Positions 1 to 56,725 of a stretch of DNA of 64,000 nt are shown here, in pieces. The notes under the pieces are model-generated. The model did not search any database. It was given only the letters and a program-made list of their open reading frames with translations, and had not been told where the DNA came from. The number at the start of each line of letters is the position of its first letter. Positions within the stretch are counted from its first letter, which is position 1. A program made the position numbers and the translations under genes. The DNA is from Branchiostoma floridae (lineage: Eukaryota > Chordata > Leptocardii > Amphioxiformes > Branchiostomatidae), in contig NC_049995.1 in NCBI RefSeq assembly GCF_000003815.2, positions 13,354,062-13,418,061 on the forward strand, given 5' to 3'.

Positions 1-2834
1 TGACGGATTCTTAGAAAGTGTTTGATAGCGTTCAGGGAGGCTTCCAGTTGAATGGGGTACCTCCCTAATTCCGCTCTTGTGGCAAGGTTAGATGCTGGTC
101 TGGGGATATTTAGTGCTTGTTTGCAGAATTTAAGGTGAACAGATTCAATGGGACAGGTTTTAGGGCTTTTTAATGCGCCCCAGATTTCTGAGCCATAAAG
201 TAGAATAGGTTTGACACATGCATCGAAAAGTTTGTTTCTAACTGGTAATGAGGCGGTGGCTTTATCTAAAGATTGTTTTATTCCGAATAAAGCCTTCAGA
301 CCTTTGCCACTCAGGTATTTGTTGTTAGCTTTAAACGTGCCAGCTGCACTCACAATAATACCGAGATAAGTATAACAAGTTACAATTTCTATTTCACGAT
401 TATCAAACAGGAGAGAACAGTTTTTAGGTAGACTGCCACCCTTTTTAAATACAATAATTTTTGTTTTCCTAAGATTTACTTTTAATTTCCAAAGTGCACA
501 ATAATTTTCCAGATTGTTCAAGGAATGCTGTAATCCCTGTTTGGACTCGGAAAAAATTACCAAGTCGTCAGCATACAACAAGCAAGGGACAGTTTTGTTG
601 TACATAAATGGAGGATTACAGGGAGCACCGTCAAATTGGGACACAATATCGCTAAGAAAAAGGTTAAATAATGTAGGGCTTAAATTACACCCTTGTCTCA
701 CACCACAATTAGTAACAAAAGTTTCAGTCAATCCATTTTTAGATTTAACGCAGTTTATAGTCTTTGAATACATGCCTTCTATTACTTTTAGAAATTTACC
801 ACCAATACCGAGCTTACTCAATTTAAACAAGAGGCCGTTTCTCCAAACAGAATCAAATGCTTTGCTAAAATCAATGAAGCAAGCGTAAAGTTGACGGTTT
901 TTGTTTAGATATTTGCTAACTAGTGTACTTAAAACAAACAGATTATCGGTAGTTCTAAAGTTTTGTCTGAAGCCTGCTTGGTGTGGCTGGAAGAGGTTAT
1001 TGTGTTCTGCGTATTTGACAAGGCGTGAATTTAGAATGGAGGAAAATAATTTCCCTAAACAGCTGATTATAGAAATCCCTCTGTAGTTATCTGGCAGGGA
1101 GGTGTCTCCTGACTTGTGGATAGGAACAATATGACTTACTGACCATTCTTGCGGAAAATGACCATTTTGTAAGCAAGTGTTAAACAAGTGGAGTATAGGT
1201 TCTTTAAGCAACATTTTACCAGATTTTAGCATTTCATTCAAAATTCTGTCATTGCCGCTTGACTTACTGTTTTTTAGTTTTAAAACTGCGGTGTCCAATT
1301 CTTCTGGAGTAATTGCGGAATCTAGTTCTGACGAGTTTGGTGGGGTGTTCGAAAAGTCTGTTTGAACGTTTTCACTGGGAAGGTCGTTGTCTGTAGAGCT
1401 ATCAGGAAATTTGTCAAGATTCTTGAAGTGATTTACCCATTCCTCCTCTGTAATCTGGTTATCGTCATTTGGCTTTCCTGGTTTCAGTTTATTTATCAAG
1501 TTCCAGAATGCACTCGGGTTTCTTTCCTTTAGTGAAGACAATTGATCCATGATTTGTTGGTGGAAATCTCGTTTTTTCTTTTTTAACAATTTCTTATATT
1601 CTTTTTTACTTTTGAAGAATCTACCCCTTATGTCTGGATTCGAAGGATTTTTTTCCAGTAAAGATGCTATGTTTTTCACTTCCCTTTTCATTTCCATGCA
1701 GGTTTTGTCAAACCATTTCTTGTTTTGTCTTTTACGTGGGCGTTTCCTTACCCTTTTCAAACATAGCGACTGATCACCTGCTTCTCTCAGAATGGAACCA
1801 AACTCAGACACATAATCATCGATTTCCGAAGTGCTGTTTATGTTGTTTGGAACATTAGAACAAAGTAAACGTAGTCTGTCGACGAAATGAGACTGGCCGA
1901 GAGAAGAAAGAAACTTCTGGGCTGATTTATCGTTCCATTTATATTGTTTGGGGAGAGGTTTTGCATTTGATATTTTCCGGCTTTCTTGATAGGAGTGATT
2001 TGTTGATTTTGATTGGATTAATGCCCAAACCATGCAGTGATCAGAGAATAACGTTAATGGTTTTATGTGAAACGATAAGATATGTGGGATCAGGGACTGA
2101 CTGCAAATTATGTAGTCAACTGTGCTGCTTCCACGCGGTTGGTGACAGGTAAATTTCCCCTGTAAATCCCCAGCTACCCTCCCGTTTAAAACTCTTAGGT
2201 TAGCTTGAACACATAGGTCAGCGATATGCCTGCCGAATTTATTCGGAGGGGCCTTATCCATGTGTTGTCTATCTGAGGAGTAAGGGAAGCTGTCTGGATT
2301 ACAATCGTCGGGAGTGCTATCATCTACATAATCGCGCAAATCACCAAGACGAGCGTTTAAGTCGCCGCCAAGTAAAATAAATCCGTCTGAACTATATCTG
2401 GATATTTCGCTTTCTAGGATTTCTAATGTATGATTTTCTGCGTATTTGTGGGTGGTTGATGTACTGGGACTAATATATGCCGAACAGATGAACAAGTCTT
2501 TTGGTAGGCCCAGTAGCTTTCGGTCTATCTGTACCCAGAGAACATCTGTGGATTTTGATTGTGCTTTCTTGACGTAGTTTCTGTACTCAGTCTTGTAGAA
2601 GAAAATTATACCCCCCGATGAGCGCTTTGCTCGCTTGTTTTTTTGTCTGCATTGGTGGAAATAACTGTAGCCGGGAATGTTAATTTTTGTGTTTTCTGTG
2701 CTCCAGGTTTCTAGGAGCGAGAAGAAGTCAAACTTGTTTACATAAGACACGAAATCTATATCCTCTAATTTGGTACCTAAGCCATGAACGTTCCAGGCAC
2801 CAAAGCTTTTGCTTCCGCCTGGGAAAGTTTTCAT
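1..2834 (-). CDS. LINE ORF2: APE endonuclease plus reverse transcriptase, C-terminus cut by window edge
   Basis: The frame opens with ATG at 2834-2832 and stays open to base 1, at least 944 codons. The start reads MKTFPGGSKSFGAWNVHGLG, the typical beginning of an APE-like endonuclease (substrate-nicking domain). Further on are a GGDLNARLGD-type motif and an SDHCMVW motif near the endonuclease end. The reverse transcriptase follows, with FIDFSKAFDSV (motif A), GVRQGCNLSP (motif B) and LYADDLVIF (motif C, catalytic Asp pair at 564-569). The reading frame at the start, at YADD and at the left edge is the same, so no frameshift is needed. The last visible residues, around IKHFLRIR, are still inside the coding region. 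The function is target-primed reverse transcription. The clade (CR1/L2-like or another APE clade) is not settled by eye. Confidence 0.92.
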   Translation of the reverse strand, partial: MKTFPGGSKSFGAWNVHGLGTKLEDIDFVSYVNKFDFFSLLETWSTENTKINIPGYSYFHQCRQKNKRAKRSSGGIIFFYKTEYRNYVKKAQSKSTDVLWVQIDRKLLGLPKDLFICSAYISPSTSTTHKYAENHTLEILESEISRYSSDGFILLGGDLNARLGDLRDYVDDSTPDDCNPDSFPYSSDRQHMDKAPPNKFGRHIADLCVQANLRVLNGRVAGDLQGKFTCHQPRGSSTVDYIICSQSLIPHILSFHIKPLTLFSDHCMVWALIQSKSTNHSYQESRKISNAKPLPKQYKWNDKSAQKFLSSLGQSHFVDRLRLLCSNVPNNINSTSEIDDYVSEFGSILREAGDQSLCLKRVRKRPRKRQNKKWFDKTCMEMKREVKNIASLLEKNPSNPDIRGRFFKSKKEYKKLLKKKKRDFHQQIMDQLSSLKERNPSAFWNLINKLKPGKPNDDNQITEEEWVNHFKNLDKFPDSSTDNDLPSENVQTDFSNTPPNSSELDSAITPEELDTAVLKLKNSKSSGNDRILNEMLKSGKMLLKEPILHLFNTCLQNGHFPQEWSVSHIVPIHKSGDTSLPDNYRGISIISCLGKLFSSILNSRLVKYAEHNNLFQPHQAGFRQNFRTTDNLFVLSTLVSKYLNKNRQLYACFIDFSKAFDSVWRNGLLFKLSKLGIGGKFLKVIEGMYSKTINCVKSKNGLTETFVTNCGVRQGCNLSPTLFNLFLSDIVSQFDGAPCNPPFMYNKTVPCLLYADDLVIFSESKQGLQHSLNNLENYCALWKLKVNLRKTKIIVFKKGGSLPKNCSLLFDNREIEIVTCYTYLGIIVSAAGTFKANNKYLSGKGLKALFGIKQSLDKATASLPVRNKLFDACVKPILLYGSEIWGALKSPKTCPIESVHLKFCKQALNIPRPASNLATRAELGRYPIQLEASLNAIKHFLRIR

Positions 2835-3131
2835 ACTGTTGATTAAGTACTAGTACTAAGAAAAATTGTGTCTTTACGGTCCGAATCCACAATACTTGAC
2901 AATACTTAACTAGTTAAACATTTAAATAGAGATACTATGACAATGAATTCTAAAACTTCAGTGAGATACTATAAATTGGAAGTCTAAAACTACTACTATA
3001 TGTTTATGAAATACCAACGTTAGCAAACAATGAGTCTAGCAGTTCTTTAAGAGATAACAAACAAAAACAGAAAAGGGAATTTAAAAGTAAAGGCACATAG
3101 GGTGACGCAAAGTACAGTCCCAGTACACATC

Positions 3132-5660
3132 CTACCACATGGCGAACATTGGCGGCCACATCATACTTGGGTGCCATGGCCAGGGCGGTGGGTTCATCAG
3201 CGGTGGATGTCGGGGCGGGATGGGGATGTTGGCGTTCGGGTGGGGTCCCCAGGGCACGGGAGGAGGCTGGAACATGGGCCGGCTCCAAGGTCCGGAGGGT
3301 GGGGGCTGGTTCCAGGGTCCTGCACGGTGTCTGGGCGTGATCGCTGTTTCCCCCGTCTGGCCATTCGAAGTAGAGGACTTTGACCCTTGCAGGGTGATAG
3401 GGCCGCTAACCCTTGGCGCATCGAACGTCTGTCCTGTTCTCTGTGTTGAAGGTCCGGTAGGAATGACAGGCATACATTCTGTCGGGCCTCTCTCAGGTGC
3501 CGGTGCAGGGCGTCCATGCACGGGGTGGTGACTTGAAGTTGGAGCGGGTTGGGAGCGAGTAGGAGACTGAGTTGGTCTTGGAGCGGGTTGGGGTTGGAAT
3601 CGAGGAGGTGTCTGACTGGGTCTGTCCATCTGTGCACCAACTACTGCGTCTCTGTACGAGCGGTTCGGAGAACTTAGCTTGATGTTTGCTGTAGGTTGGT
3701 TGTTGTTGATGATAGGGTCGTTCCTTCGGCCCATGTAATGGCCCAGGCCTACGAGGGGGTTGATCGTTCGCTTTATGTTGGCTGCCAGAACCCGAGTCCC
3801 ATTTCTGTTGAGATGATATCCGTCTGATGAGTACAGGGGTCTCTTGATGGTCCCAGAGGTGGCAAAGTTCGAGTTGTCGATAGTGTGAATGTAAGACGTC
3901 TCATCAGCGGCGACCTTCAGGAAGGTGTTGACGTCATCACCAAATTGTTGGAGGGTGGGGTCATCTCTTGGTAGCACTGAAGATAAGACAAGGTTGGTGC
4001 GTGGATACTTCTCGTGGGTTACCTGGATTAGCTCGCGAAAGTTCTCTGTCACCAATGTAGCGTCTCTAGCATCCCGTATGTCATTCGTCCCAACATGGAA
4101 CAAAATGACCTTTGGGTCAGGTCGGGCCGAACTCTGAATGTAGTCTAGGCATTGAGAAATGTTGAAGGCCAATTCTTTATTCACACGTTTGTTTGGGTAC
4201 AGTACGTCCGTTTTTAGCGCTTTGGTGTTGGAGTCTCCCAGGATGAGTATGTCGGGCTGGGTTTCTTTGTTTTGTAGATTGGTCGTCATTGTCTCCTTCG
4301 GCGGGATCTCAGTGTTGTCTCTGGCTGCACGCGGGCGGTGATTAGCTTCTGAATGGCTTTTCTGTACACCTTGTTTCTCCGACATATGTGAACTGCCAGC
4401 GGCGGTACCATCAATGGCCTCGTTCAGCACCTCGAATCTGTTGTGTACCTTTATTGTCGCCACTTCGCGGATTAGCCTGTCGGCGCGTTCTGAATCCTGA
4501 TTTTCCCTGGTTTGAGTTCCCGCCGATGTCACCTGCCGCTTTGATGTGGTCTTGACTAATTCGTCGAATCTGTCTCGTAACGTCTTGACTTCACGTGCAA
4601 GATCGCGCTTTTCCCTTTCAAGACGCACAATGTCATCTTTCAGCTTTTTCCCTTCTTCAATAGTGAGGCCACTACACCTGTGGTTTTGGCCGGAGGATTT
4701 CAGTTTGTCTTCAAGGACAGACAGCCGTTGTGAAATAGAGTCCTCAAACGTTTTTCTGTCGGCGATTGAATCAACTAGACACGTTTCCAGCTTGTTTACG
4801 CTGTCTTGAACAATAGAGCAATTGGAAGAGGAACACCGATCCGCCACATTTGTCTGAGTGTTAGACATATTGTCAGATACACCTTCAGTCTCATTACTGT
4901 TTACATCAAGCAAACCTTTAGGTACAGTTCTGCACAGCGGACACACATCAGACGCAAGGGGTTGATCACACGTTTGGCAAAGTGTAGTGCTGCTATTCAC
5001 TGTCGTTATAGAACCCTCCAGGCTTGTGTTCTGAGGTAAAACAACCGTATTATTGTTCACGAGAGGAGTGGAGCTAATGTTCTGTTGTACCTTCTGTCTG
5101 AGACCAGGGAACACTTCCGAAAACCAAAGCAAGTACGCCGAACCTTGAATCAGCAACTTCTGGGTCGATTCGTAGATTTTGATGCTCACAGAACCAACCG
5201 ACTGTTTGGTTTGGAAGTCAACGAACGTGGTTTTGATGTGATGACCGTCACTGGACTCGTCTTTTGCTCGAGTGTTGTAGAACTCCTCACATTTAGAAAG
5301 CCAGGAAATCGCATGATTGGGGGGAAGGTATATTGTGATACTTTGAGCGTTGTGTTGTATACAATAGTTCCTAGGCTGTTTCAGCGATTTCTTGGAGAAT
5401 CTGGGCGCGCCGGGGATGGTATGGCTGTCGTTGTACTGTTGTCTACGGGAAGCGTCCGAAAGAACAGTAAAAGCCTTCCTCACCTCTTTGTGCTTTACAT
5501 GAGCTTTCTTGAAGACGCTGTCTGTCCTGCTGAGCTTGCACGCTTCTTCATACAACAGGAGCTCTGTCGTGTAGGCAGCGACAATTTCATCGTGAGTCGC
5601 TGTGGGTGGAACACCGAGTGCCGAGTACAACTTTTCAGGGTCACTTCCATCGGTCGCCAT
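3132..5660 (-). CDS. LINE ORF1 protein: J-domain-like N-terminus, zinc motif, coiled coil, SGNH esterase
   Basis: An 842-residue protein. Residues about 8-78 read like a J domain (YSALGVPPTATHDEIVAAY, then VRKAFTVLSDASRRQQYND), but the HPD tripeptide between helices II and III is absent. Residues 105-190 hold a beta-rich segment with IKIYESTQKLLIQG. C228, C231, C240 and C243 form a CxxC-x8-CxxC putative zinc ribbon. Residues about 335-370 are charged heptad-like sequence, a likely coiled coil. An SGNH/GDSL hydrolase follows: GDSN at 475-478 (nucleophile Ser), GTND at 524-527 and DGYHLN at 613-618 (Asp/His pair). The last 180 residues are Pro-rich and end in Trp/Met-rich sequence. Esterase-bearing ORF1 proteins are known from CR1/L2 LINEs and are thought to act in the RNP or at membranes. 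The J-like module is the unusual part. All four SGNH blocks are present, so activity is plausible. Confidence 0.93.
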   Translation of the reverse strand: MATDGSDPEKLYSALGVPPTATHDEIVAAYTTELLLYEEACKLSRTDSVFKKAHVKHKEVRKAFTVLSDASRRQQYNDSHTIPGAPRFSKKSLKQPRNYCIQHNAQSITIYLPPNHAISWLSKCEEFYNTRAKDESSDGHHIKTTFVDFQTKQSVGSVSIKIYESTQKLLIQGSAYLLWFSEVFPGLRQKVQQNISSTPLVNNNTVVLPQNTSLEGSITTVNSSTTLCQTCDQPLASDVCPLCRTVPKGLLDVNSNETEGVSDNMSNTQTNVADRCSSSNCSIVQDSVNKLETCLVDSIADRKTFEDSISQRLSVLEDKLKSSGQNHRCSGLTIEEGKKLKDDIVRLEREKRDLAREVKTLRDRFDELVKTTSKRQVTSAGTQTRENQDSERADRLIREVATIKVHNRFEVLNEAIDGTAAGSSHMSEKQGVQKSHSEANHRPRAARDNTEIPPKETMTTNLQNKETQPDILILGDSNTKALKTDVLYPNKRVNKELAFNISQCLDYIQSSARPDPKVILFHVGTNDIRDARDATLVTENFRELIQVTHEKYPRTNLVLSSVLPRDDPTLQQFGDDVNTFLKVAADETSYIHTIDNSNFATSGTIKRPLYSSDGYHLNRNGTRVLAANIKRTINPLVGLGHYMGRRNDPIINNNQPTANIKLSSPNRSYRDAVVGAQMDRPSQTPPRFQPQPAPRPTQSPTRSQPAPTSSHHPVHGRPAPAPERGPTECMPVIPTGPSTQRTGQTFDAPRVSGPITLQGSKSSTSNGQTGETAITPRHRAGPWNQPPPSGPWSRPMFQPPPVPWGPHPNANIPIPPRHPPLMNPPPWPWHPSMMWPPMFAMW

Positions 5661-7117: not shown

Positions 7118-10100
7118 CTGCGAAGACATGTAATAACAACTATAAAGTAACTTGTTTCGACCAGTCCTCTCAAATTGATCGGAGGGACTTAGGTGCAATT
7201 TTTTTATACATGAAATAAGATTTTGAATACGCGTTTTTTTTTGGGGGGGGGGGGGGGGGGTAACGACTAAAGAAGAATTAAACACAACATCCTCACAATG
7301 AAGGGTTACAATCACACATTAAAAACATATTTCTTACTGAATATAAGCACCTTTTTCTCGCTTAACTACCAAGGATGCAGAAAGCATTTTGTGCAAAAAG
7401 CTTCGGACTTTTTCACTCATTTGATACAAGAACAGACTTACCCGCAGGTTCGGTCTCACTAATCCTGCTGTTTTCAGGATCAACAGTGAATCCGTTCTCA
7501 TCGGGATTTCCCAACTGACCATCTATTAAGTTACTAGTGTAACTGGTCTGGGCTGCAGCCGACTCAGATTGGGCCACAGTAGCCTCAAAATCAGCAAGGA
7601 CACTGCCGGATCTGACAATAAAATGGGACATTCAGAATTTTCGATTATCTAGGACTGTACCTTTGTGGAGACTGCGAAACTTACAAATCACTACTTTAGT
7701 GACCGCAAGCACAAATTTCAAAAAATCTTTTTCAAATAATAATGATAAAAACTGCAATTCTTTACACTGAAATATATATGATAGCAAAGTCCATAAAATG
7801 CTTTCTAAGGAAATTGTTGATACCCACCTGCAGCCTGTCACCTCTGCTCCTTCATAGCCTTTGTATAGCTCAAATATAGAGTTCACCTAGAAGGAAAAAA
7901 AACGATGAAGGGCAATTTGCATAAGTCAAATATAATCCTGCATTACTCTAATGTGTTACAGCATGACAGCTAAACATTAGATTTAATTGCTGTGTTCATT
8001 AGATAGCAATTGCAAGTGAAGGAGCTCAAAGTTTCACATACCTGTGTTACTATCCTGTTTGAAAGCTCTCCATCACAAATCCCCTTGCTGTACTGAACAC
8101 TGGTGATGGCAAGGGTTCCATACAGGATTCGGTTGTCTGTGAGGAAAACAATACATGATCATGATTTGAAACTTAACTTCCAAGTAAACATGACAAACAT
8201 CTTGTACATTACAATGCTCATCGAAAATATAGATCAATGGCTTACTTGCAATTGAGGACTGACAACTGTGAGAATATGCTTGCTACATTGGTTATTGTAA
8301 CATCAGGAAAATAAAATGAGAATGCAAACAAGTGACAATGCTCTTCATATTTACCGTGTGTTTTGAGATTAACCTATAAGTACAAAGCACTTGAAGGAGT
8401 AGCAAAAACAATTATTACATTTTGGTCAAGACTTGTTCCTTATGTAATATACCTTCTATCAGAACCTGGATGACGTTAGAGTACACAGCTCCCTGACTGT
8501 TCTCTGCCTGGATGCGGATCTCGTACTGTCCTTTTCCAGGGAGTTTCACATTCTCTGTGAACTCGGGTCTGTTCTTGGAAGCTTCCTCAGTGACTTGTTT
8601 GACAATGACCCAGTCTGTAGTTCCGTCCAGCCTGTACTGTACAGTGTGATCTGTCTTCAGACCACCATTAGACGCCGCTGTCCATATCAAGGTGACATTG
8701 CCTGCTGCTGTCTTCTTAGTGTAGTCAAGGTTGGTGGAAGGTTCTGGTTTGGCTGGGTTTCAATCAGCAGTAAATCAAAATTCGACACTGCCAGGTTATT
8801 GTTATTGGTACTCATAGCACACTTAATTGAAGAGAAGAATGCAAAGAGTATGTACAATGCTACCTGTAAATTTGAAACTTGTTGTTTTTATTGTGAAAAT
8901 ATGGAAATGGTGAAAAATCCCAATTGTTTACACTTACTTTCAGCCACCAGTTGAATAACTGTTGCCCGTTGTCCATGCTCATTCGTTGCGGTACACGTGT
9001 AGTCCCCATAGTTCTCCCTCTCCACGTCTGCTATGTAGAAAGTGCTGACTCCATCCTGGCTGGTGGCATTACCAGTGATGTCATATCCACCCTTCATCCA
9101 TGTGTAGACTATCTGTGGCGGGTAGGCGAAGGCAGAACATTCCAGTGTGACAGGCTGGGACCTGCCTATGGCGTACCTGTCTCTGGTGTGGTTGAAGATT
9201 GGGATAACTGGGGAAACATTTAGAAAACAATAAACCAAAAGTCATACTAGACAATACGGCAGCCTACCCTCCTCTGTGGTTGGCCAGGCAGCTAGGTGCT
9301 GACTATAGTAAAAAAGAATCTCAACTTTTTTCTATATTTTACTATCGTACATAGATATCATTAATTAGAATGTGATTTGTCACAACATAAGCACAAGCCA
9401 TTTACAAATCTTAATCTAATGGATACTATTGTGAATAAAGCTATTACAATCAAAAATCATGCAAGGACTTACAGTTGACATTGAGAGTAGTTTCCTTGCT
9501 CACAGGTGATCCCACCACACCATTGTCAGCTGTACACCTGTAGACACCTGCATTTTCATGACTAACAAAATTGTTGGTATAGATGAGAGAATTTCCTGTA
9601 GTCTGCTGTAGTAGAGTTTCTCCTGTCTCCACAAACATCCACGTCATGGAGGTGACGTCAGGGTTACTGTTTGCCTCACAGGTCAGGCTGACGGACTGGG
9701 TTTCGTGCACGGGGTTGGGAGTGGCGGTTACTATCAACTCGGGGGAATCTAAGGGGACAGAATTCTCTATTTTAGGACCGCCATTTAATGTGGGTGAAAT
9801 CATGGTCCAACATTTCAAAGTACCAACATGTAAAGTATAAAACAGAACATGCAATCATGAACTGTGATGAGAAGTATTCAACCAACAAAAACTGCCTCAG
9901 GACATTTGTGGACAGGGACATACACGTATTATAATGTGTATGAGTAGATAATTCCAAACATTGTGTATTGAAGGAAACTAAACAAGCCAGGACAGACAGT
10001 TAATGGATGTACTTATAAGCAGACAATAATGCTAGGCTGTAGGCCATTATGCCATAGATTGATGCACCATGCTTGTCAGCATGAATGTTGTATGGTATGC

Positions 10101-13100
10101 AGGACAGACACCTTTGCCTAGTCTTACAGTATTAGTTATGTCCAGTGTACAAGAAAAGAGTCAGAAACTAGGTCATGAAAGTGTCAAGACTTCAACTTCA
10201 GTCATCATCATGATCAATCAAGAAAAATTAAGGCTGAGGTGACAGCTGATGACAAATAACACACCATGATTGTATACAAATGTGCAAATATATATTTGAC
10301 TTCCCATTGACCTTCATGGCAAGAAACAAATTAAAGGAATCTTAGAGGTAACTATCACAGCACGAAAACAACTTTTTAAGCAAAGTTTCAGAGATACGTA
10401 TAAAGCCCTTAAAGGCGGAGAAATATTTCAGCAGATTTTAAGATCTATCAAAGGCATCGGAAACATACATTTGGCATTTACGGAAGATTTCAGCGTTTGT
10501 AAATCTAACTTAATCTGTTGTGTTTCTTTACGTGAATTTTACATGTATTTGAGTATGCCGAAAAGACAACTTAAATGTCTCAAAAATATTTTCTGTCAAA
10601 ACGGACAAATGCCGTTTCTCTAGATCTGTTACAAAATACATGTTAACCGGCTATGTCAAATGTAATAAGCCTTTGTCTGGTGTTAGATAAAACATGGCGT
10701 CATCTGTTTTATAACAGTGGCAAGATTTACAGTCAAAACTGAAAATTATTGCGCTTTCTGGTACAAAATGTTATGTTTATACCTCAGCAAATACAAATAC
10801 AATACAATACAAAGTCAAATACCATAATATTCTGTGTTTTTTAGCAATTCCGAAAGCATTTGACGTATTCAAACTTTCTGTGCGCAAGGTTTAATTCGAA
10901 CAGGGGAGAACCTCTCACGGTTAGCTTATATGCGCTATTTTACGTTATATGAAATGTTGCGTATACCATGGTCAATATTGACCGAAGGATGCCATATATA
11001 TAATTTATTTCGAACCGTCATTTACGCAAAGAAGGGAAGACCTCCCCCGTTAACATATTTGCCAAGACGTATATGAAATGTTGCGTATTTCATTTGAATA
11101 TACGAAATGATTATTCTTTGAATCCGCGCAGTTTAAGCGAACTAGGGGAGACCTCTCCCGTTTAGCTTACTAGTATATGTTGCCAAAACGTATATGAAAT
11201 GTTGCGTTTTTCTTTTCAACATACGACATGTTTAATCTTTGAATCCGCGCAGTTTAAGCGAACTAGGGGAGACATCCCCCGTTTAGCTTATATGCTGCCA
11301 AAACGTATATGAAATGTTGCGTATTTCTGTAAAACATACAACAAGTTTAATCTTTGAATGCTCGCAGTTTAAACGAACTTCGGGAGACCAACCCCATTTA
11401 GCTTATATGTTGTCAAGACGTATATGAAATGTTGCGTATTTCTAAAACATACAACAAGTTTAATCTTTGAATCCGCGCAGTTTAAGCGAACTAGGGGAGA
11501 CCTCCCCCGTTTAGCTTAGATGTTGTTAAGACGTATATGAAATGTTGCGTATTTCTGTAAAACATACAACAAGTTTAATCTTTGAATCTAGGGGAGACCT
11601 CCCCTGTTTAGCTTATATGCTGCCAAAACGTATATGAAATGTTGCGTATTTCTGTTGAACATACGACATGTTTAATCTTTGAATCCGCGCAGTTTAAGCG
11701 AACTAGGGGAGACCTCCCCCGTTTAGCTTATATGTTGCCAAAACGTATTTGAAATGTTGCGTATTTCTGTTGAACATACGACATGTTTAATCTTTGAATC
11801 CGCTCAGTTTAAGCGAACTAGGGGAGACCTCCCCCGTTTAGCTTATATGTTGCCAAAACGTATATGTAATGTTGCGTATTTCTGTAAAACATACGACATG
11901 TTTAATCTTTGAATCCGCGCAGTTTAAGCGAACTAGGGGAGACCTCCCTTGTTTAGTTTATATGTTGCCAAGACGTATATGAAATGTTGCGTATTTCTGT
12001 TGAACATACGACATGTTTAATCTTTAAATCCGCGCAGTTTAAGCGAACTAGGGGAGACCTCCCTCGTTTAGCTTTTATGTTGTCAAGACGTATATGAAAT
12101 GTTGCGTATTTCTGTAAAACATGCAACAAGTTTAATCTTTGAATCCGCGCAGTTTAAGCGAACTAGGGGAGACCTCCCCCGTTTAGCTTATATGTTGCCA
12201 AAACGTATATGTAATGTTGCGTATTTCTGTAAAACATACGACATGTTTAATCTTTGAATCCGCGCAGTTTAAGCGAACTAGGGGAGACCTCCCTTGTTTA
12301 GTTTATATGTTGCCAAGACGTATATGAAATGTTGCGTATTTCTGTTGAACATACGACATGTTTAATCTTTAAATCCGCGCAGTTTAAGCGAACTAGGGGA
12401 GACCTCCCTCGTTTAGCTTTTATGTTGTCAAGACGTATATGAAATGTTGCGTATTTCTGTAAAACATGCAACAAGTTTAATCTTTGAATCCGCGCAGTTT
12501 AAGCGAACTAGGGGAGACCTCCCCCGTTTAGCTTATATGTTGCCAAAACGTATATGTAATGTTGCGTATTTCTGTAAAACATACGACATGTTTAATCTTT
12601 GAATCCGCGCAGTTTAAGCGAACTAGGGGAGACCTCCCTTGTTTAGTTTATATGTTGCCAAGACGTATATGAAATGTTGCGTATTTCTGTTGAACATACG
12701 ACATGTTTAATCTTTAAATCCGCGCAGTTTAAGCGAACTAGAGGAGACCTCCCTCGTTTAGCTTTTGTGTTGTCAAGACGTATATGAAATGTTGCGTATT
12801 TCTGTAAAACATACAACAAGTTTAATCTTTGAATCCGCGCAGTTTAAGCGAACTAGGGGAGACCTCCCCCGTTTAGCTTATATGTTGCCAAAACGTATAT
12901 GTAATGTTGCGTATTTCTGTAAAACATACGACATGTTTAATCTTTGAATCCGCGCAGTTTAAGCGAACTAGGGGAGACCTCCCCCGTTTAGCTTATATGT
13001 TGCCAAGACGTATATGAAATGTTGCGTATTTCTGTTGAACATACGACATGTTTAATTTTTGAATCCGCGTAGCTTAAGCAAACTTGGGGGCACTACCCCC

Positions 13101-16100: not shown

Positions 16101-19100
16101 CAGATTGTCCTATGCCGTTGTCAGCTGTACAGGTATATGTGCCTGCATCATTTCTGTGGAGACTTGTGATCTGTGTGGTATTGTTGTTGGCAATGCCTGC
16201 TGGGATTGGTCCTGGGGCCTTGCTCCATGTAAAGGTTGGATCAGGGTTCCCGTCAGCCGTACATGTAAGAGTGAGGGGGTCTCCTTCTTTCTCTACTGCC
16301 GTACTCGGTGTGACAGTGGTTCCTGACGGTTCATCTATTTATACAAGGTCCAACTTGTGAACGGTCTGGATTATTAATATAGTCTAGACACGAACAGCAC
16401 AGATTAAAAGGACTTCTTTGTGTGGCTGAAAAAAAAACCTTCAATCCATCAAAAATGCAGCGAACAGTAACTGCACTGTTTTTTTTAAATTACAAAAATA
16501 AAATATATTTAAATAGATTTGAAACAAACAGCTTAACTCACAGTTCACAGTTACAGTAAATCACTTTGGCAGCCAAGCTTATAATGTTACAGTCACTGTG
16601 ACAGACCCAACAAAATTAAGTGAACAGTAACAGTAACTGCATTTTCTCCGACATTACACAAACTCTCTAAAGTTGAAAGCACGGGTACTCACAATTCACC
16701 ACCAGTCCCACAGGACCACTCTCCTGTGACGTCCCAACCACGTTAGTAGCCGTGCACCTGTACTGTCCAGCCTCACCACGCTGTACATTGTTGATGGTCA
16801 GGGTCCCTCTACTGTGGGAGACAGACTGTCCATCTCGTGTCCAGGTGTAGGAGGTAGGAGGTGGGACGGACTCGTCAGAGCTGCACGTCAGGGTCACTGT
16901 CTGGTCTTCTACTACTGGGTTTGGGGTGATGTCAACAGTTGGCTGGGAGGGCTTGTCTGTGGAACATATGTCATGTATATCAAGTAAAAATTACGTTAAG
17001 GCCATAGAAAATAACTTTTATGGATGGCATCCCCTTAAGACCCCAAATGTAATGCAAAATTGCAAAATAATATTAGGAAAAAAGCAAAATATGTAGTTGG
17101 CATATTACACTAAGTCTTTCAGTTGGCCACTACACTAAAGAACTGAATTATAACTGTTGCATTTCCTTTTTTTTGCAGTATTTATTGTTCATGTGTATCA
17201 GTAATTTTAGTGTGATTTTTAAACTCTTTCTGTCATGTCCGTTATGTGATATTGTATTGATGTGCAATGAATTTCATGTGTTGGACCGCAGGACAAATAA
17301 CTAAGAGAACTTTCAAGCTGTTGATGTGTCTCAATTATAAAGCAGCATTAATGGAGAAGCCAAGAAATGATGTACAGTCATGTAGAAAGCTTAACAATCT
17401 CCATTAGCATTTTAATGCACAATACAAAGCGTACTCACAATTCACCACCAGTCCCACAGCACCACTCTCCTGTGACGTCCCCACCACGTTAGTAGCCGTG
17501 CACCTGTACTGTCCAGCCTCACCACGCTGTACATTGGTGAAGGTCAGAGTTCCTCCACTGTGGGAGACAGACTGTCCATCTCGTGTCCAGGAGTAGGAGG
17601 CTGGAGGTGGGACGGAGTCGTCAGAGCTGCACGTCAGGGTCACTGTCTGGTCTTCTACTACTGGGTTTGGGGTGATCTCAACAGTTGGCTGGGAGGGCTT
17701 GTCTGTGGAACACATGCAGAGGTCGAACAATTAGTTCTGAGAACAGATAGAATACAGTATTACAAATTTGTCGTAAACGTCTATGGTCGTAAACTGAACC
17801 AACTTACTTGAATCCAATGTTTTTGTCAAACATTGCTCCCTGAAAAGTGAAAAGCTACAGGAATTGTACGTATGTGCTAGTGAATACACTGAAAAGCTCG
17901 GATTTCCCGACAAATAAATGTTCATGTAAATTTACTGTGCACATGCTGATCAAATTCACAAAACGATGTAATACTGACTGATGAAATGCGGTACACTTAC
18001 ACTGCACAGTGACGACAGTGTTTGCTGTCCCAGTTCCAGCGCTGCCATCATGGAATGTGTTTGTTGCTGTACACACATACGTGCCAGCTGCTGCCTGCTG
18101 GATGTTTGAGATGGACAGCTGTGCTGTAGAGGAGACAGCTGTGCTGCTGCCCTGTTTCTTCCACTCCACACTGGCAGCAGGTCTGGCAGACACCGTGCAC
18201 TCCACAGTCAGGGTCTCATCTTCAGTCACGGTTTCCTCACTTGGAGCCGATACCTCAGGGGCATCTGGGTAGAAAAAAAACGTAAAAAATACGTCGGCCT
18301 TAAGGTTATGTTGTATGCCATTGGTTACGGTTTAGAAAGTAAATATGCTACATAGAAAAGAATGATCCTGCTTTTATGAAATGATATATACTGAATTATT
18401 GTTAAGATGAATCCAGTTATTTGTATGTCTTGTAATTGTATACTACAAAGTTGCATAAAATTCCAAAACAATTCAAAAGCATTTACCATTCACTTAGTAA
18501 ACATGCATATTTATATCATCCTTTGTCGTATATTCCGTGTATTGTATTAGATTTCGTCCATGTACATCGTACAATGACCTGGAACTTTCTAATAAAAGTT
18601 AGTAAAAACAGTATGACAGTTGAATGTCTTTACAATGTTTGCTGCGACAATATGCATGAGATTGTCTGTTCTGAATCACAGATGAAGAGGTCTCTTGACT
18701 ATCAAAAATTACGATCCGGTACCGAGCGCCTGGCCCGGACGGTTCCGTGCATGCCAGGCAGTGCAACACCCAGCTAAATGCGTCTTCAAAGGGGATGGCA
18801 ATACGAAAAAATGTTCAAATTTTGTTAAAATGTTGGCAGCTAAATTTCAGCAAATGTCACAAAATTTGGTGGCTCTATAGTGTAAGCTGATACGCGTTCA
18901 CGCGTTATGCGACATAAAAGTTGCCGCAGGCTTAAAAAGTACCCCCCCCCCCCACATACACCGTCTGAAAATAGGGTTAACAGCAATAGTGATTCATATC
19001 TGTTTGAATGATACAACAAACTTACATTCCACACTGAGAACTGTGGATGCTGTATCAGGCATTCCCACATTGTTGGTCACCTCACAGGTGTAGGTGGTAT

Positions 19101-45283: not shown

Positions 45284-48200
45284 TTACTCAGAGTCAAACT
45301 TGATGGAGTTCACACCCATGTCTATAGGGCCTCCACGGTATGAGCCTCGCTTCTTCTTCGTCTTCTCGTGCCTGAAGGATTTTCCCTTGGTGAACTTCAG
45401 GTCCTTGTTAGCTTTGGCACCCCATGCATCGCCTCCCTGAAGAGACAAAATTCAATGCAACATTTAGCAATACCAGTACACATGTGTGATATAATTAATA
45501 TAATATTTTGGTTGTAGCCATTAGAAACTACTGTACTTTACATTTGTTTTTTTTAAGACCATAAAGATGTATTTCCTTGGTTCTTAATTTTAAAGAAGGA
45601 ATGAATAAGTTCCATATGAAAACTTAAATCTGATAATATTCACTCCATGAAGCTGCATACCAATGGACAGTCTTCCCCCCTCCTCAGATCTAAAACCCAA
45701 CAAATCAAAGAAGTCTGAACACAGGATTTTGAAGGACAAGTCAACTGACCTTGGACTCAAAGGCGTTGTTCTGCAGACGTGGGTCAATTTCAACCTCTTC
45801 TTCACGTACCCTCCTGAATGGCGTGTTCTTCTGTTGACAAAAAAAGATTTGTGTCAATACATTGTTTATTTCATTCATTTCAAAAGAATAATGCTTTCTT
45901 TTACTGCAAGGAACAATGTTAAAATGGTAAATCTTAAATAGTGCCAGTATGTTTTAAATACATACATTTCACTACAAAATACAAAAAGAATCTTTTCTTA
46001 TCCCCAAACCACTTCTACCTGGCATATGTTAAGTAAAACAGTATAAATGTATAACAATTGTTGTTGAAAATTCCACTAGCTACAGCTAATGTAGTAACAT
46101 GAAAGAACTAGAAATCCTGAAACTTAATACCTTTTCTTGTTGTTTCTTTGTCTGCGGTACTGTATTTGGGGTCTTCTTGTCTGCCTGTTGGTTGGAAGGA
46201 GTAGTCGTGGGAGTCTTGGGTTGGGATGTCTTGGCTGGTGTCTTCTTCTCCTCTTCCTCCTCTGAACTGCTGCTGTCTTCTGATGAACTGCTCTCAGCTT
46301 TCTTGCCATTGGCTGTGACAGAACACAGAGAGTATATCTTACACACAGTGAGAGACTCATCCTGGCCAGAATTTTTGAATTCCCTGAACAATGGTCAAGA
46401 ATCCTTGACATGCATTTTTGTACATTTCTCAGTCAGGATCTTGGTCTTTTTCAAAGATACTTGAATCCCTTTTTTCTAAGGCCTCATAAGATCCACCAAC
46501 CTCCATTACATCTGAGTTATTCTTCTCATAAACCAGTGCAAGGGACTAATGACTGATGGGGACAATATAATCTCTCTCATACATGTATAGGGGAAATTTC
46601 CTGACTCCTCCAGCTGCATTCTATGCAAAACTTGAATGAAATTCTAGAAGTTCTTACTGTAAATCATGAAATGTTTGCATGCAGGGGGTTAATTTTCAAA
46701 GTTGCTGTGGATACCTCTCTGCCACACCATGACACCACAAATAAGGTTTCCATTGAATTAACAATGTACTACATCAATACATAATCGTTTCAACTGCAAA
46801 CTCAAAACACAGCAAAAACCTCCTGACACAAAATCAAACTCACCTGTAGGCTTTTTCTCCACAGGTGCAGGTGTCTTGGGTTTGGGAGCCTCCTCTTCCT
46901 CAGAACTGTCTGAGCTGTCTGAGTCTGAAGAACTGTCTGCTTTGGCTTTCTTTGCAACTCCATTCACCTGTGACAACAAAGCAAATACAAACTATGTCAG
47001 TTTATATATCAGTAATCAACACAATATGTCTGCTTCTGAAAAATCTCAGTAAATCTAATTCCTACAGCAGTGTTATGGCTCTAATATGGAACTTTGTGTA
47101 CATTTCACAAGTATTGCCAGTATCTAATATACTCTCACTACCAATGCGTGTTGAACATTAGATACAAAATGACACCTACATATACACCTCTTGCTATTCT
47201 GAACAGACGTAATGTATTCATGTCTTGCAGTATCCATCTAATCATGTAGTATTCTACATATGGTTGGTGGGGCAAACACCTGCCACATGGCATTAAGTAG
47301 CTATCATGAGAAACATTGATCAGGGTCTTGCTACCTTTGGTGCTGCTTTTTCTGCAGGCTTTTTCTCCTCCTCATCTGAGTCACTCGACTCCTCTGAACT
47401 TGATTCATCCTTTTTTACAGGAGTTTTAGGCTTTGTCGGTGTTTTGTTGACTGTTGCTTTTGTGGGTGTTTTTGTTGCTGAAGTTTTAGTCGAAGCAGGC
47501 TTGGTTTCTTCCTCTGAACTACTGTCATCAGAACTTTCTTCCGAAGAACTGGACTCTTCCTTCTTGGCAGGAGGCTTTTGAACTTGAGGAGTGGCCTTTG
47601 CTGGTGCTTCATCTTCTGAATCTGAACTTTCCTCAGATGAGCTTGAGTCATCTTTCTTAGCTGCAGTTTTCTTCGGGGCAGGCGTGGCAGCTGGCTTTGT
47701 GACTGCTGGTTTCCCTACTTTTTTGGTAGATTCATCTTCTGAGCTGGATTCCTCTGAGCTGGATTCTTCTGAGCTGGATTCCTTCTTTTTGTTCACAGCT
47801 GCTTTAGCTGATGTTTTTGCTGGTGCCTTGTCGTCTTCTTCACTCTCTGATTCAGAGGAGCTTGAGCTACCATCTTTTTTCTTTGGGACAGTTTTTGCTA
47901 CTGCTGCCTTGTCTGTTACCGCCTTGACTTTGGACTCTTCTTCACTTTCACTTTCTGAGCTACTTTCTTCGGAGCTTGATGACGACTCCTTCTGCTTGGA
48001 TGCTGTTGTCTTCTGAACAACTTTTCCAGGCGTCTTTTCTTCTTCACTTTCTGAGCTTGAGTCACTAGAGGAACTTTCCTTCTTTTGGACTTGTGCTGCA
48101 ACCTTTTTAGCAGGTGGTGGTTTTGTAGTCTTGGAGGTTTCTTCTTCTTCAGATGATGAGTCAGAATCTTCAGATGAACTCTCTTCCTTAGGCGCTGGTG

Positions 48201-50319
48201 TTTTAACGGCAGGTTTTGCAGCTGGTACAGGCTTTTTTGCAGTTTCGTCGTCAGAGCTTGAGTCTGAATCTGAGCTGTCTGAGCTTTCTTGTGTAGCTTG
48301 TTTCTTGGCTGGTGGTTTGGGGCTAGCTTTGGACTGAGCAGGCTTTGCAGGTTCTTCCTCACTTTCTGAAGAGGAACTACTCTCTGAAGAACTTTCCTTT
48401 TTTCTCTTGACTCCTGTCTCCTTTTTTGGAGTAGGAGTTGGCTTGGCTTGTGGTTTTTCCTCTTCATCTGAACTGCTATCAGACTCCGAAGAGCTCTCTT
48501 TCTTTGCTACTGGCTTTTTTGTTGGAGTAGCTTTTTTCTTTGTTGGAGTTACTTTTGCAGGAGTGGACTTCTTCTGTTTTGGGGTGGCCTTTTTCTTGGT
48601 GGGTGTCGTTTTCTTATTAGCAGGGGTGGCTTTTTTAGATTCTGCTTCGCTGTCTGAGCTTTCATCATCAGAATCAGAGCCTGAACTGCTCTGTTGTTTC
48701 TTAACGGGAGGTTTTGCTGCTGGGGTCGATGTTTTGGCCTGTGCTGGTTTATCTTCGTCATCTGAACTACTGCTGCTAGAGGAGGAGTCCTTCTTCTGTC
48801 GTTTGACGGCAGGTTTGGCCTGGGGTGTGCCTGTCCTTTTTCTCTTCTTAGCACTGTCAGGTGACCTGTGTGAGGGGAAAGACCAAGTGTCAAAGGAAGC
48901 TTTTCACATTTCTTTAGCATTAATACTATCGGTATCTAAATGCGGTGTCAATTTTGATGACGACTGTAAAGATTTAGGACATACATGTACTCCCACGCAC
49001 AATTCCCGAGTGGAATGCCCTGCCTGGCACGGTTGTAAGCGCTCCCAACGTTGAGCACTTCCGTGCCAGGCAGGCGGCCTGCCCGCCCTAACCCGGGAGC
49101 CTCAGCTCCCCCCCCCTACTTTTGCCCCTCGCGGGGTCATTTGGGGGTATCCTATGCAGATGCAGATGCAGATGCAGAAAATGAGAGATGTTACTTGACA
49201 TTGCAGCTATGGAGAGAACAGTACTTTAAGTATAAAAGGATCCAGTAGTAGAGTACAAAATGTCATACTTAATTATTTTTGTGTGAAATTTAAGCCTTAA
49301 GGGCATTAAAAGACTTTCTGCATGTTGATTTTAAATGAAGCCTGATTCGCAAGAAGTCTATGTACTTACTTCTGCCACATTTCAAACCAATCCTCAACTG
49401 TGGGCTGCTCTTCATCTGGAGCCTGAAGTTTCTGCGAGACAAAGGAAATGCAAGATTTACTTTGCTGCAAAATGTTTATTTAATATTTCAAATGTACATC
49501 CAACAACAGCAATCCTGATTGGGTACAAAGTGAATTTAGTTGACTGTCAACTAAATTCACTTTGTACCCAGTCAATATAGTAGTACCTTCAATAAGTAAT
49601 GACTGAGACTGTTCCCTGGTTTGTCTAACATGGAACTATATTGCAATTCATGACTTTGGCTACTTTCTTCCTTATCCATGATCAAGATTTCAATGTACAA
49701 GTAAATTTAGTGTAATATGATTTGAAATATACAATGGGTTTTTAATGTCAGTTATGAGCAGGTTTATCTTTCTAACATTATTGAATATTCTATTGGATCA
49801 GACTAGAACTTTTCCTCCAAATACTGGTGGATATGATTTTGAAACTGGGGCCTTGCCCAGACCATACTCTCATCATAATGTAAAGGTTTTACTTGGTGTT
49901 GTTACCTGTTGAACTTAGGGTGCCCCCCTCCCACATGTTAACAAACACGGAACACGTGCGCACACGTGCAAAGTGTGTAGTTTTGTACCACTATGATCTT
50001 CCCAATTCTTGTCAAAAGCGATGATGTTGAAATGGACCGGTGACTTGGCAAGGACATCATCAGAGAATAGTATGGCCTTTAGGGCATTACAATATTCAAA
50101 CGATCGCACCACGCGTTAGAATTTTAAAGAAAGACGCCATCTTGACTTGCACAAGTTTCCAAGCAGGATGCTATAGGATGCTTGTAGAAACCCCCTCCCC
50201 AAGCGTCTTACCATTCCAGTCTGCTTCTGGAACCATTGTGCCGCCTTATCAAACTTGTGGTCCTTGAGGAACCCGTAGATGAAGGGGTAAATCACGCTGG
50301 GAACGGCGTTAGAAGACAT
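45284..50319 (-). CDS. NOLC1: NOLC1 (Nopp140): nucleolar and Cajal-body phosphoprotein
   Basis: Seven coding exons: 50319-50212, 49431-49370, 48865-47335, 46967-46844, 46312-46131, 45830-45750, 45436-45284; phases join and give 746 residues. The first exon encodes a LisH-type N-terminus ([20 protein letters not shown]); the next ends in EDWFEMWQK. The large third exon (510 codons) alternates Lys/Pro/Ala-rich linkers with acidic serine clusters ([13 protein letters not shown]), the CK2-target repeats of Nopp140. The C-terminus is the conserved SRP40 domain ([17 protein letters not shown]; then [16 protein letters not shown] and NSIKFDSE at the end). Nopp140 chaperones box H/ACA and C/D snoRNPs and shuttles between nucleolus, Cajal bodies and cytoplasm. 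The human protein is about 700 residues, so length fits. Intron 2 contains a LINE 3' fragment. NUDCD3 is divergently transcribed upstream. Confidence 0.95.
48970..49175 (+). mobile_element. 5'-truncated LINE 3' end with (GATGCA)n tail, in NOLC1 intron 2
   Basis: The plus-strand frame reads [20 protein letters not shown] and then [10 protein letters not shown] and a stop near 49090, the usual C-terminal end of non-LTR ORF2 proteins (T-x-PEWNxLP). A short GC-rich 3' UTR and a GATGCA repeat at about 49155-49178 follow. It is antisense to NOLC1. Confidence 0.75.
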
Positions 50320-54251: not shown

Positions 54252-54461
54252 GTCAGTTTGCTTCTTTTTCTTCACTGGGTTTTGCACCTCAGCCTTCTGC
54301 ACTTGAAGATCCATCGTGCTGCTTTCTTCAGTTTGCTTAGCTTAGTATAAAGGCCTGCTTTTGATGCTTACTAAATGCTGTGTTACTTTATTTAGTTACC
54401 AGTATACATTATTTTTAGTAATGTAGGGAACAGTAACTGTTTGCTGCATTTTTGTTGGTAC

Positions 54462-56725
54462 CGTTAGATCGAATCCGGCAGGTTGGCTGGACGACGAACT
54501 CAGAGAAGTAATGAGGCTCAGGGATGACGCCAGAAGAGAAGCCCATGCAACAGGCCTTGCTTCGGATATGAGTATATACAAGAAACTAAGGAATACAGTT
54601 GTCAAACTAAACCGGAAAAAGAAAGCTGCGTTTTTCAAATCTAAAATAGCGGAGTCCAGAAACAACCCAAAGGAAATGTGGAGAACGCTAAATGGAATAA
54701 TGAGCAGGGGACCTTCTCGGTCGGCCTGTACTGTAGAACGTGACGGAGTGATCCTCACCAAGGCGGGAGACATAGCCGACTACTTCAACTCATTCTTTAC
54801 ACAGAAGGTGAACTCTCTGAGGGAGGGGTTCGACTCGCAAGCAGATGGGGACCTTCTCGGGCTGATAAGGGATAAGATCATGGCGGGAAAAGACTGTAGT
54901 TTCCAGTTCAAACCTGTACACCACGAACAAATCCGCAAACACCTTTTGTCCTTGTCGGATGGGAAAGCTACTGGTCTAGACCAAGTTGACAACAACCTGT
55001 TAAAGTTAGCTGCCGACCATATTGCAAGACCACTGTGCTACATTATAAACTTATCGCTTACTACCTCTGTTTATCCGACGGCATGGAAAAGAGCCAAGGT
55101 TGTTCCCTTACCCAAGTCGGCAACGGCTCGTTTAAGCGGACCGAACAGCAGGCCAATTAGTCTCCTGCCTGCCTTTAGTAAAGTAATGGAGAAAGTTGTC
55201 AGTTCTCAAATATCGGACTATTTTCAAGGGAACGCCCTGATGTCACCTTACCAGCACGCCTACAGGAAGCATCACTCCACTGGGACTGCACTCTTGCAAC
55301 TAGTTGATGACTGGTACTGTAAAATCGACCAGGGGAACATCGTCGGGGTCATCTTTCTGGATTTCTCCGCTGCTTTTGACTTGGTGGATCACAGTCATTT
55401 GTTGCAAAAACTGACATGCTACGGTTTCTCAGATACAGCGGTTGGTTGGATGGGCAGTTACTTGGCAGGGAGAAAACAGTGTGTACATTTCAACGGCACG
55501 AATTCAACCTTCAGAGAGATACACTGTGGCGTTCCCCAAGGGAGTTGCCTTGGTCCGTTGTTGTTTACGATCTTTACCAACGACTTGCCACTTACCGTGA
55601 CGGAGACCACCCCCGCCATGTACGCAGACGATACATCAGCATATGCGTGTGCGCCATCAGTTGAGACAGTTACGGTTAAGTTACAGACAGACATGAATAA
55701 CATATGTGAATGGGTGCGTTTAAACAAACTCTTCTTGAATGCAAAAAAGACCAACTGTATGTTGATTGGGAGTAAACCAAAAATATCAAAGAAACCTGAA
55801 CTCACCTTATCTGCTGACGGGAGTCCTATACAACAAGTTACAACTATGAAGCTACTGGGGAGTACATTGGACGAGTGTCTTACATNNNNNNNNNNNNNNN
55901 NNNNNNNNNNNNNNNNNNNNNNNNNNNNNNNNNNNNNNNNNNNNNNNNNNNNNNNNNNNNNNNNNNNNNNNNNNNNNNNNNNNNNGACCTCCACATAAGA
56001 GACACTACTAAGAAAGAGTGGCTCGATCATTGGGCGCCATCAGAAGAAGTGCGGCATACTTGGATCAGTCGTTACTGAAATTGTTGACCGAAACACTTAC
56101 CTTGTCACACCTGGACTACTGTACAGCGGTTTGGACTTCTACTTCACAGAAGAACATCAACATACTACAAGTAATGCAGAATAAGGCGGGAAGACTTATT
56201 CTTGGATCTTACCGCATATCGGTCAGGCAGATGAACAGCGTCTTATCGTGGCAGACGGTTATGGAGAGACTTTACGTTACCAACATGTGTACTTTCCATA
56301 AAATACTCTACTTCAACCAACCTTCCACTCTTTACAGTAAACTACATCTCGTATCTCACCAACACACCTACAGCACAAGATCCGCAAAACGCAATGACTT
56401 CAAACTACCAAAACCAAAAACAACAGCTGCAACGAAGTCTTTTCTCTACCGGTGCTCAAAATCCTACAACACTCTTCCACAATATATCAGATCATCCGTT
56501 CCATCATCCTTCAAACTACTCATCAAAGACAGGCTAAAAAGGACTCAAACATTCTGATCTGGTAGCACTTTGAAATTGATGTAAATATGTATATACTATG
56601 TAATGTTATGTGTATGTGTACCAATGTAATGTATATGTTTTAATGTATGACCCCAGGAAGAGTAGTGGATGCACATGTGTATTCACTAATGGGTGTCATT
56701 TTAACAATAAACAATAAACAATAAT
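54462..56725 (+). mobile_element. L2-like LINE, 5'-truncated, reverse transcriptase region with 3' tail
   Basis: The frame opens in the linker before the reverse transcriptase (NPAGWLDDELREVMRLRDDA) and continues with RPISLLPAFSKVMEKVV, VIFLDFSAAFDLVDH (motif A), CGVPQGSCLGPLLF (motif B) and MYADDTSAYA (motif C). After the gap (55886-55985) the frame resumes with LGAIRRSAAYLDQSLLKLL, LSHLDYCTAVW and a stop at 56557. The 3' UTR ends in an (ACAATAA)n tail at about 56704-56722. The endonuclease and ORF1 are missing. It sits in sequence homologous to receptor intron 6, splitting TTGTTGG from the AAGCTTGGCTGCC block. Confidence 0.9.
55886..55985. other. Assembly gap, 100 N
   Basis: Gap within the reverse transcriptase ORF of the LINE. 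The frame changes across it, as expected for a gap of unknown length. Confidence 1.

Follow-up and report, generated by a model that had tools for sequence, protein, structure and literature searches.

A predicted J-like module without the HPD motif at the N-terminus of an esterase-type LINE ORF1 protein in amphioxus

In a 64,000-nucleotide stretch of the Branchiostoma floridae genome (assembly GCF_000003815.2, contig NC_049995.1, positions 13,354,062 to 13,418,061; hereafter the window), the locus at the beginning of the stretch is the 5′ part of an intact-looking long interspersed nuclear element (LINE) with two open reading frames (ORFs). Our analyses revealed that the protein encoded by ORF1 (window 3132..5660, minus strand) starts with a module, residues 8-78 (window 5427..5639, minus), that resembles the J domains of DnaJ/Hsp40 proteins in sequence and in the predicted arrangement of its first three helices. 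Since the HPD tripeptide is missing, we call this module J-like, rather than a canonical J domain. The esterase-type ORF1 on which it sits is known, while the J-like N-terminal module on such an ORF1 is apparently new among the literature matches listed.

The J-like module and the loss of its Hsp70-facing residues

The module was delineated by Pfam, a PDB sequence search, a structural model, Foldseek, VIA and alignments. Within the whole ORF1 protein, the Pfam family DnaJ (PF00226) matches residues 11-77 with 33.6 bits (E 4.4e-8), above the cut-off of 27.8, and residues 1-90 alone reach 39.9 bits (E 4.6e-10); one reversal and five shuffles of residues 1-90 matched no Pfam family. At E<=0.01, a phmmer search of the PDB with the same residues returned 24 distinct sequences, each from a J-type protein, among them Sis1, CbpA and Williams-Beuren region 18. 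The alignment to the J domain of Escherichia coli DnaJ scores 83, a value reached by none of 2000 shuffles (highest, 50), and blastp of this domain reaches E 4.2e-8 when ORF1 is the sole subject. When the window was searched by tblastn, default seeding with the E. coli DnaJ J domain missed the J region, whereas relaxed seeding with E. coli DnaJ placed it first (E 1.5e-6 or 4.8e-6), ahead of the next match at 0.25 or 0.28. The relaxed search revealed no second J-like region in the window, its next E value being at least 0.25. A chance origin of the J signal was considered as well and is ruled out by the shuffles, the Pfam controls and the relaxed tblastn search.

The single-sequence model, built without an alignment, places helices at residues 8-15, 23-40 and 48-79, with helices III and IV running together. 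Residues 11-70, corresponding to helices I-III, have a mean predicted local distance difference test (pLDDT) score of 79-89 per ten-residue block. Helix IV is not modelled confidently, as the block of residues 71-80 averages 47 and the score stays below 50 from residue 75. With this model as the query, the first 19 Foldseek ranks all go to J-domain or DnaJ/Hsp40 entries, 4j7z appearing three times, although rank 12 carries the DNAj name only through the separate PDB sequence search, and the first low-probability entry stands at rank 21. The first-pass annotation of this DNA, made from the letters alone, had noted that residues 8-78 follow the J-domain pattern and had proposed comparing the N-terminus with the four-helix J fold in a predicted structure. 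The pattern is borne out by the above-cut-off Pfam match and the uniformly J-type PDB matches; as for the fold, helices I-III and the Foldseek ranks agree with it, but helix IV is not secured.

As the first-pass annotation had also stated, the HPD tripeptide is missing, and we found none anywhere in the 842 residues of ORF1. The canonical place of Y-HPD is occupied by residues 37-45 (YEEACKLSR; window 5526..5552, minus), as located by the alignments. The histidine of HPD aligns to E38 in every alignment, and the proline and aspartate align to E39 and A40 in the phmmer alignment and to E39 and K42, or S44 and R45, in the others. Thus none of the three residues is retained in any alignment, though the partners of the proline and aspartate vary.

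To read this loss against the remainder of the domain, four canonical J domains served as yardsticks, those of E. coli DnaJ, 4j7z, 2lo1 and 2yua, to which ORF1 is identical at 24 of 73, 24 of 67, 22 of 59 and 23 of 63 positions, respectively (33-37%). ORF1 retains 13 of the 21 columns that are invariant across the four. Four of the eight that it has lost are the H, P, D and N of HPDxN; the others are F57H and three mild replacements, I60V, Y64F and D77N. Among the columns with a basic residue in three or all of the canonical domains, all four in helix II and the single one in the loop are lost, and all four in helices III and IV are retained, the net charge of ORF1 being -4 over residues 10-40 and +5 over residues 50-78. 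Basic residues of helix II play a role in the contact of J domains with Hsp70. The HPD motif serves the stimulation of Hsp70 (PMC3806816). At the level of sequence, the pattern of loss therefore reads as a retained core with an erased Hsp70 surface. Because it comes from one copy and four yardsticks, it is a pattern and not a measure of selection. Given that the residues thought to face Hsp70 are gone, a scaffold without Hsp70 stimulation, which the first-pass annotation had put forward, is a natural reading of the module and would fit this pattern. Capture of the module from a host DnaJ gene, likewise suggested there, is a possible origin.

The ORF1 protein and the element

The first-pass annotation had described 3132..5660 as one 842-residue ORF without giving the strand; it is present on the minus strand and runs from an ATG through 842 codons to a stop, encoding a multidomain LINE ORF1 protein. 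At the given base composition, 842 open codons would arise by chance with a probability of ~10^-16, and the remaining five frames across the region hold 24 to 44 stops each. Behind ORF1, after an AT-rich gap of 297 bases with 32% GC (window 2835..3131, minus), lies ORF2 (window 3..2834 from its first ATG, minus), which runs off the window and contains an endonuclease (PF03372, E 4e-8) and a reverse transcriptase (RT; RVT_1, PF00078, E 5.9e-40). The closest solved relatives of ORF2 are LINE-1 ORF2p and R2 proteins. Because an endonuclease-RT ORF follows ORF1 after 297 bases, the element is a LINE; this order of ORFs is that of APE-type LINEs, and at its 3′ end the element continues outside the window. 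A signal for reinitiation was sought in the gap, which contains three ATGs, a number that is not exceptionally low (P 0.20).

Downstream of the J-like module, residues 86-200 (window 5061..5405, minus) form a second N-terminal domain, which is assigned to no family, with a weak signal at residues 120-177 resembling the lobe of TBP, as assessed by Pfam, profile hidden Markov models and hhalign. Pfam reports a single match in this domain, to RnlA_toxin (residues 142-177, E 0.021), which falls short of the cut-off. Against a profile of RNase HIII, made from 77 of 80 loci (80 kept from 125 relatives, with the partial matches L053, L077 and L081 left out), residues 86-200 give E 6 at rank 16 and 15 of 1000 shuffles score higher; the whole ORF1 ranks 329th. 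The hhalign alignment covers residues 120-175, overlapping the RnlA_toxin match, with a probability of 4%, and its score was equalled in 2 of 200 shuffles. A pairwise alignment of residues 86-200 to the TBP lobe was not significant, its score being reached by 490 of 5000 shuffles. The PDB searched by sequence gave nothing but an unrelated match at E 0.6, NCBIfam and PHROGs gave nothing, and the single-sequence model has a pLDDT below 50 over these residues. A TBP-like lobe, associated with the binding of nucleic-acid duplexes, is reported to be common to RnlA-type proteins and RNase HIII, and that of RNase HIII binds RNA:DNA duplexes (PMC3710099, PMC7221094). A TBP lobe in residues 86-200 is only a tentative lead, less likely than not to hold.

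The next two elements of ORF1 are a zinc-ribbon-like motif and a likely coiled coil, both named in the first-pass annotation. The former is visible in the sequence as two CxxC pairs, C228-x2-C231-x8-C240-x2-C243 (window 4932..4979, minus), with Pfam DZR and RING-type matches below the cut-off. The latter, at residues 281-376 (window 4533..4820, minus), derives from a model and a heptad count. Its best heptads, residues 344-371, have hydrophobic residues at seven of eight a/d positions, as good as in 14 of 1000 shuffles. In a second model, of residues 280-654 (mean pLDDT 49), the long helices at 281-376 are of low confidence (45-72 per block), and we grade the coiled coil as likely.

The predicted esterase, an SGNH hydrolase, occupies residues ~470-635 (window 3756..4253, minus), on the basis of Pfam, a PDB alignment and the motif. 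The Pfam match spans residues 505-623 at E 9.1e-10 and passes the cut-off, upholding the hydrolase of the first-pass annotation, and the S, N, D and H positions are S477, N526, D613 and H616. The best solved match of the region is 4c1b_A (‘ORF1-encoded protein’, E 1.3e-7), presumably the ZfL2-1 esterase described in PMC3905857. Counted by hand along this alignment, the numbering being shifted by a constant 131 relative to that paper, H191, N195, S228, D279 and H282 of ZfL2-1 correspond to H522, N526, S560, D613 and H616 of ORF1. S477 is placed by the GDSN motif together with an alignment to 6njc_A, because the 4c1b_A alignment begins downstream of it. H191 and S228 of ZfL2-1 are described as conserved only among transposon esterases (PMC3905857); both transposon-specific residues are present in ORF1, as H522 and S560. 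ORF1 closes with a Pro/Trp-rich basic tail (residues 645-842; window 3135..3728, minus), recognised from the sequence, which ends in PPPWPWHPSMMWPPMFAMW.

As for the clade of the element, the RT motif of its ORF2 is GVRQGCNLSP, and that of a second RT in the window is GVPQGSCLGP; judging by clade signatures, we take the former to be of the L1/RTE kind and the latter to be CR1-like. The CR1/L2 setting of the first-pass annotation is therefore doubtful. ORF1s of the esterase type are known from CR1, RTEX and Penelope-like elements (PMC3905857). They are also present in L2, although in PMC4120745 they were confined to two vertebrate groups of L2 and CR1. Our guess is that the studied element is an RTEX element. 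The second RT belongs to another LINE remnant (window 54427-56557, plus; RVT_1, E 8.7e-29), which is interrupted by a run of N. A tblastn search of the window returned a 28% identical RT match at 54925-55860 and a match within the tail of ORF1 itself, and neither tblastn nor blastn found a further copy of ORF1 in the 64 kb.

Comparison with known systems

The ORF1 protein is similar to ZfL2-1 and the type IV (esterase) ORF1s (PMC3905857, PMC4120745) in that a likely coiled coil is followed by an SGNH esterase, upstream of an endonuclease-RT. It differs from them by the J-like module, the further domain and the zinc motif before the coiled coil, as well as by the long Pro-rich tail. The table of LINE ORF1 domains in PMC4120745 comprises PHD, RRM, CCHC, transposase 22, zf/lz, coiled coil and esterase, and no J domain; nor is one described in the sections consulted of PMC3905857. 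Among the literature matches listed, judged by titles, the openings of abstracts and selected passages, no LINE ORF1 with a J domain was found, in line with the first-pass annotation, which knew of no LINE ORF1 with such an N-terminus; Repbase and most subscription papers lay outside this scope and may hold such an annotation.

With the J domains of DnaJ/Hsp40 (PF00226), the module shares a profile score above the cut-off, the order of helices and 13 of the 21 invariant panel columns, but it has neither HPD nor the basic columns of helix II. Pam16 likewise is not known to carry HPD. Tim16/Pam16 has a J-type domain, called degenerate in PMC3806816; there, the J-like Pam16 pairs with Pam18 and regulates it via a heterodimer of J-type domains. 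Unlike ORF1, however, Tim16/Pam16 belongs to the mitochondrial import motor, with neither an esterase nor a retrotransposon, and the likeness is one of description. The large T antigens of polyomaviruses also carry an N-terminal J domain in the protein of a genetic parasite (PMC4836724). In these DNA viruses, in contrast to ORF1, HPD is the hallmark of the domain, and two fish viruses without HPD have no recognisable J fold, as reported in that paper.

Possible role of the module and alternative explanations

We propose that a degenerate, Hsp70-independent J-like module serves the assembly of the ORF1 protein and its ribonucleoprotein (RNP), a proposal that we regard as evenly balanced. Through its retained helical core, the module would offer a surface for contacts between proteins and so aid the assembly of the ORF1 protein into the RNP, just as Tim16/Pam16 pairs with Pam18 by way of its degenerate J-like domain and the J domain of its partner. 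Oligomerisation would fall to the coiled coil, residues 86-200 and the zinc motif may touch nucleic acid, and the esterase may bind lipid, as found for ZfL2-1. The means by which esterase-type ORF1 proteins retain their RNA and form an RNP are posed as an open question in PMC3905857.

The retained charge could be read differently. The module might chiefly be a hairpin that binds RNA or other nucleic acids, in which the basic helices III and IV, perhaps with a TBP lobe in residues 86-200, package RNA or hold the RNA:DNA hybrid in target-primed reverse transcription. Such a hairpin would account for the net charge of +5 over residues 50-78 as opposed to -4 over residues 10-40, ribosomal hairpins are among the structural neighbours of the module, and the weak TBP-lobe signals recall the lobe with which RNase HIII binds RNA:DNA duplexes (PMC7221094, PMC3710099). 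A structural RNA-binding domain is moreover wanted in esterase ORF1 proteins, because Schneider et al. found none (PMC3905857). However, likeness among helical hairpins is common, and the TBP-lobe match is marginal by profile and not significant pairwise. We consider this explanation somewhat unlikely. A lasting link to chaperones, in which the module works with Hsp70 or other chaperones non-canonically, for instance directing Hsp70 to the RNP by forming a pair with a host J protein, has a precedent in the regulation of Pam18 by Pam16 through a J-type heterodimer (PMC3806816). It is nevertheless quite improbable, given that HPD and all four basic columns of helix II are gone and that no partner is known; their loss also makes direct Hsp70 stimulation unlikely.

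It could also be argued that the module exists in one copy only, as host DNA that became fused by accident to the 5′ terminus of a LINE and has no function. The window yielded no second copy, relatives of ORF1 were absent from a viral contig collection, and relatives of residues 1-250 were absent from bacterial and archaeal contigs. Only close relatives would be picked up by these scans, which may not include the genome of the window itself. Against a chance join, the frame is unbroken from the ATG through the J region into the rest of ORF1. The composition points in the same direction: codons 1-100 have a GC content of 0.51, within the 0.44-0.61 of the remaining 100-codon blocks of ORF1, and a GC content at third codon positions (GC3) of 0.59, just above their 0.41-0.57, unlike ORF2 with 0.39 and 0.38, respectively. 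Since ORF1 is thus unlike ORF2 in composition, the J region belongs with ORF1. Furthermore, an identity of 33-37% to canonical J domains and a patterned loss are unlike a fresh copy of a host J gene, although a divergent donor is possible. A functionless chance join is therefore the least credible of these explanations, and a very unlikely one.

Returning to the assembly role, if it is true, LINE ORF1s would recruit protein-assembly folds besides PHD, RRM and zinc modules, and a J-type domain would have been freed from Hsp70 within a mobile element. In a broader form, which we consider unlikely, the LINE family may have evolved a Gag-like assembly unit from two re-used folds, a J-like module uncoupled from Hsp70 that makes protein contacts and a TBP lobe that grips RNA or, at the target, the RNA:DNA hybrid. 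The TBP lobe of residues 86-200 would then be the structural nucleic-acid-binding domain reported as lacking in esterase ORF1 proteins (PMC3905857). The J-like module is a short, deletable part suited to retrotransposition testing.

Apart from the LINEs, the window contains two exon-like frames (8415-9854 and 17855-18331, minus) with immunoglobulin domains and a sub-threshold fibronectin III match, perhaps parts of a single immunoglobulin-superfamily gene of the host that shares its strand with the LINE. A 527-codon frame (47320-48903, minus) alternates Ser/acidic and Lys/Pro/Ala stretches, looks Nopp140/NOLC1-like, and has no Pfam match at E 0.001. Finally, a tandem array at 11033-12000, where the scan ended, consists of a 115-base unit (86-95% matches) containing the near-palindrome AGGGGAGACCTCCCC; weak repeated matches at 345-base steps suggest that it probably extends to ~13030.
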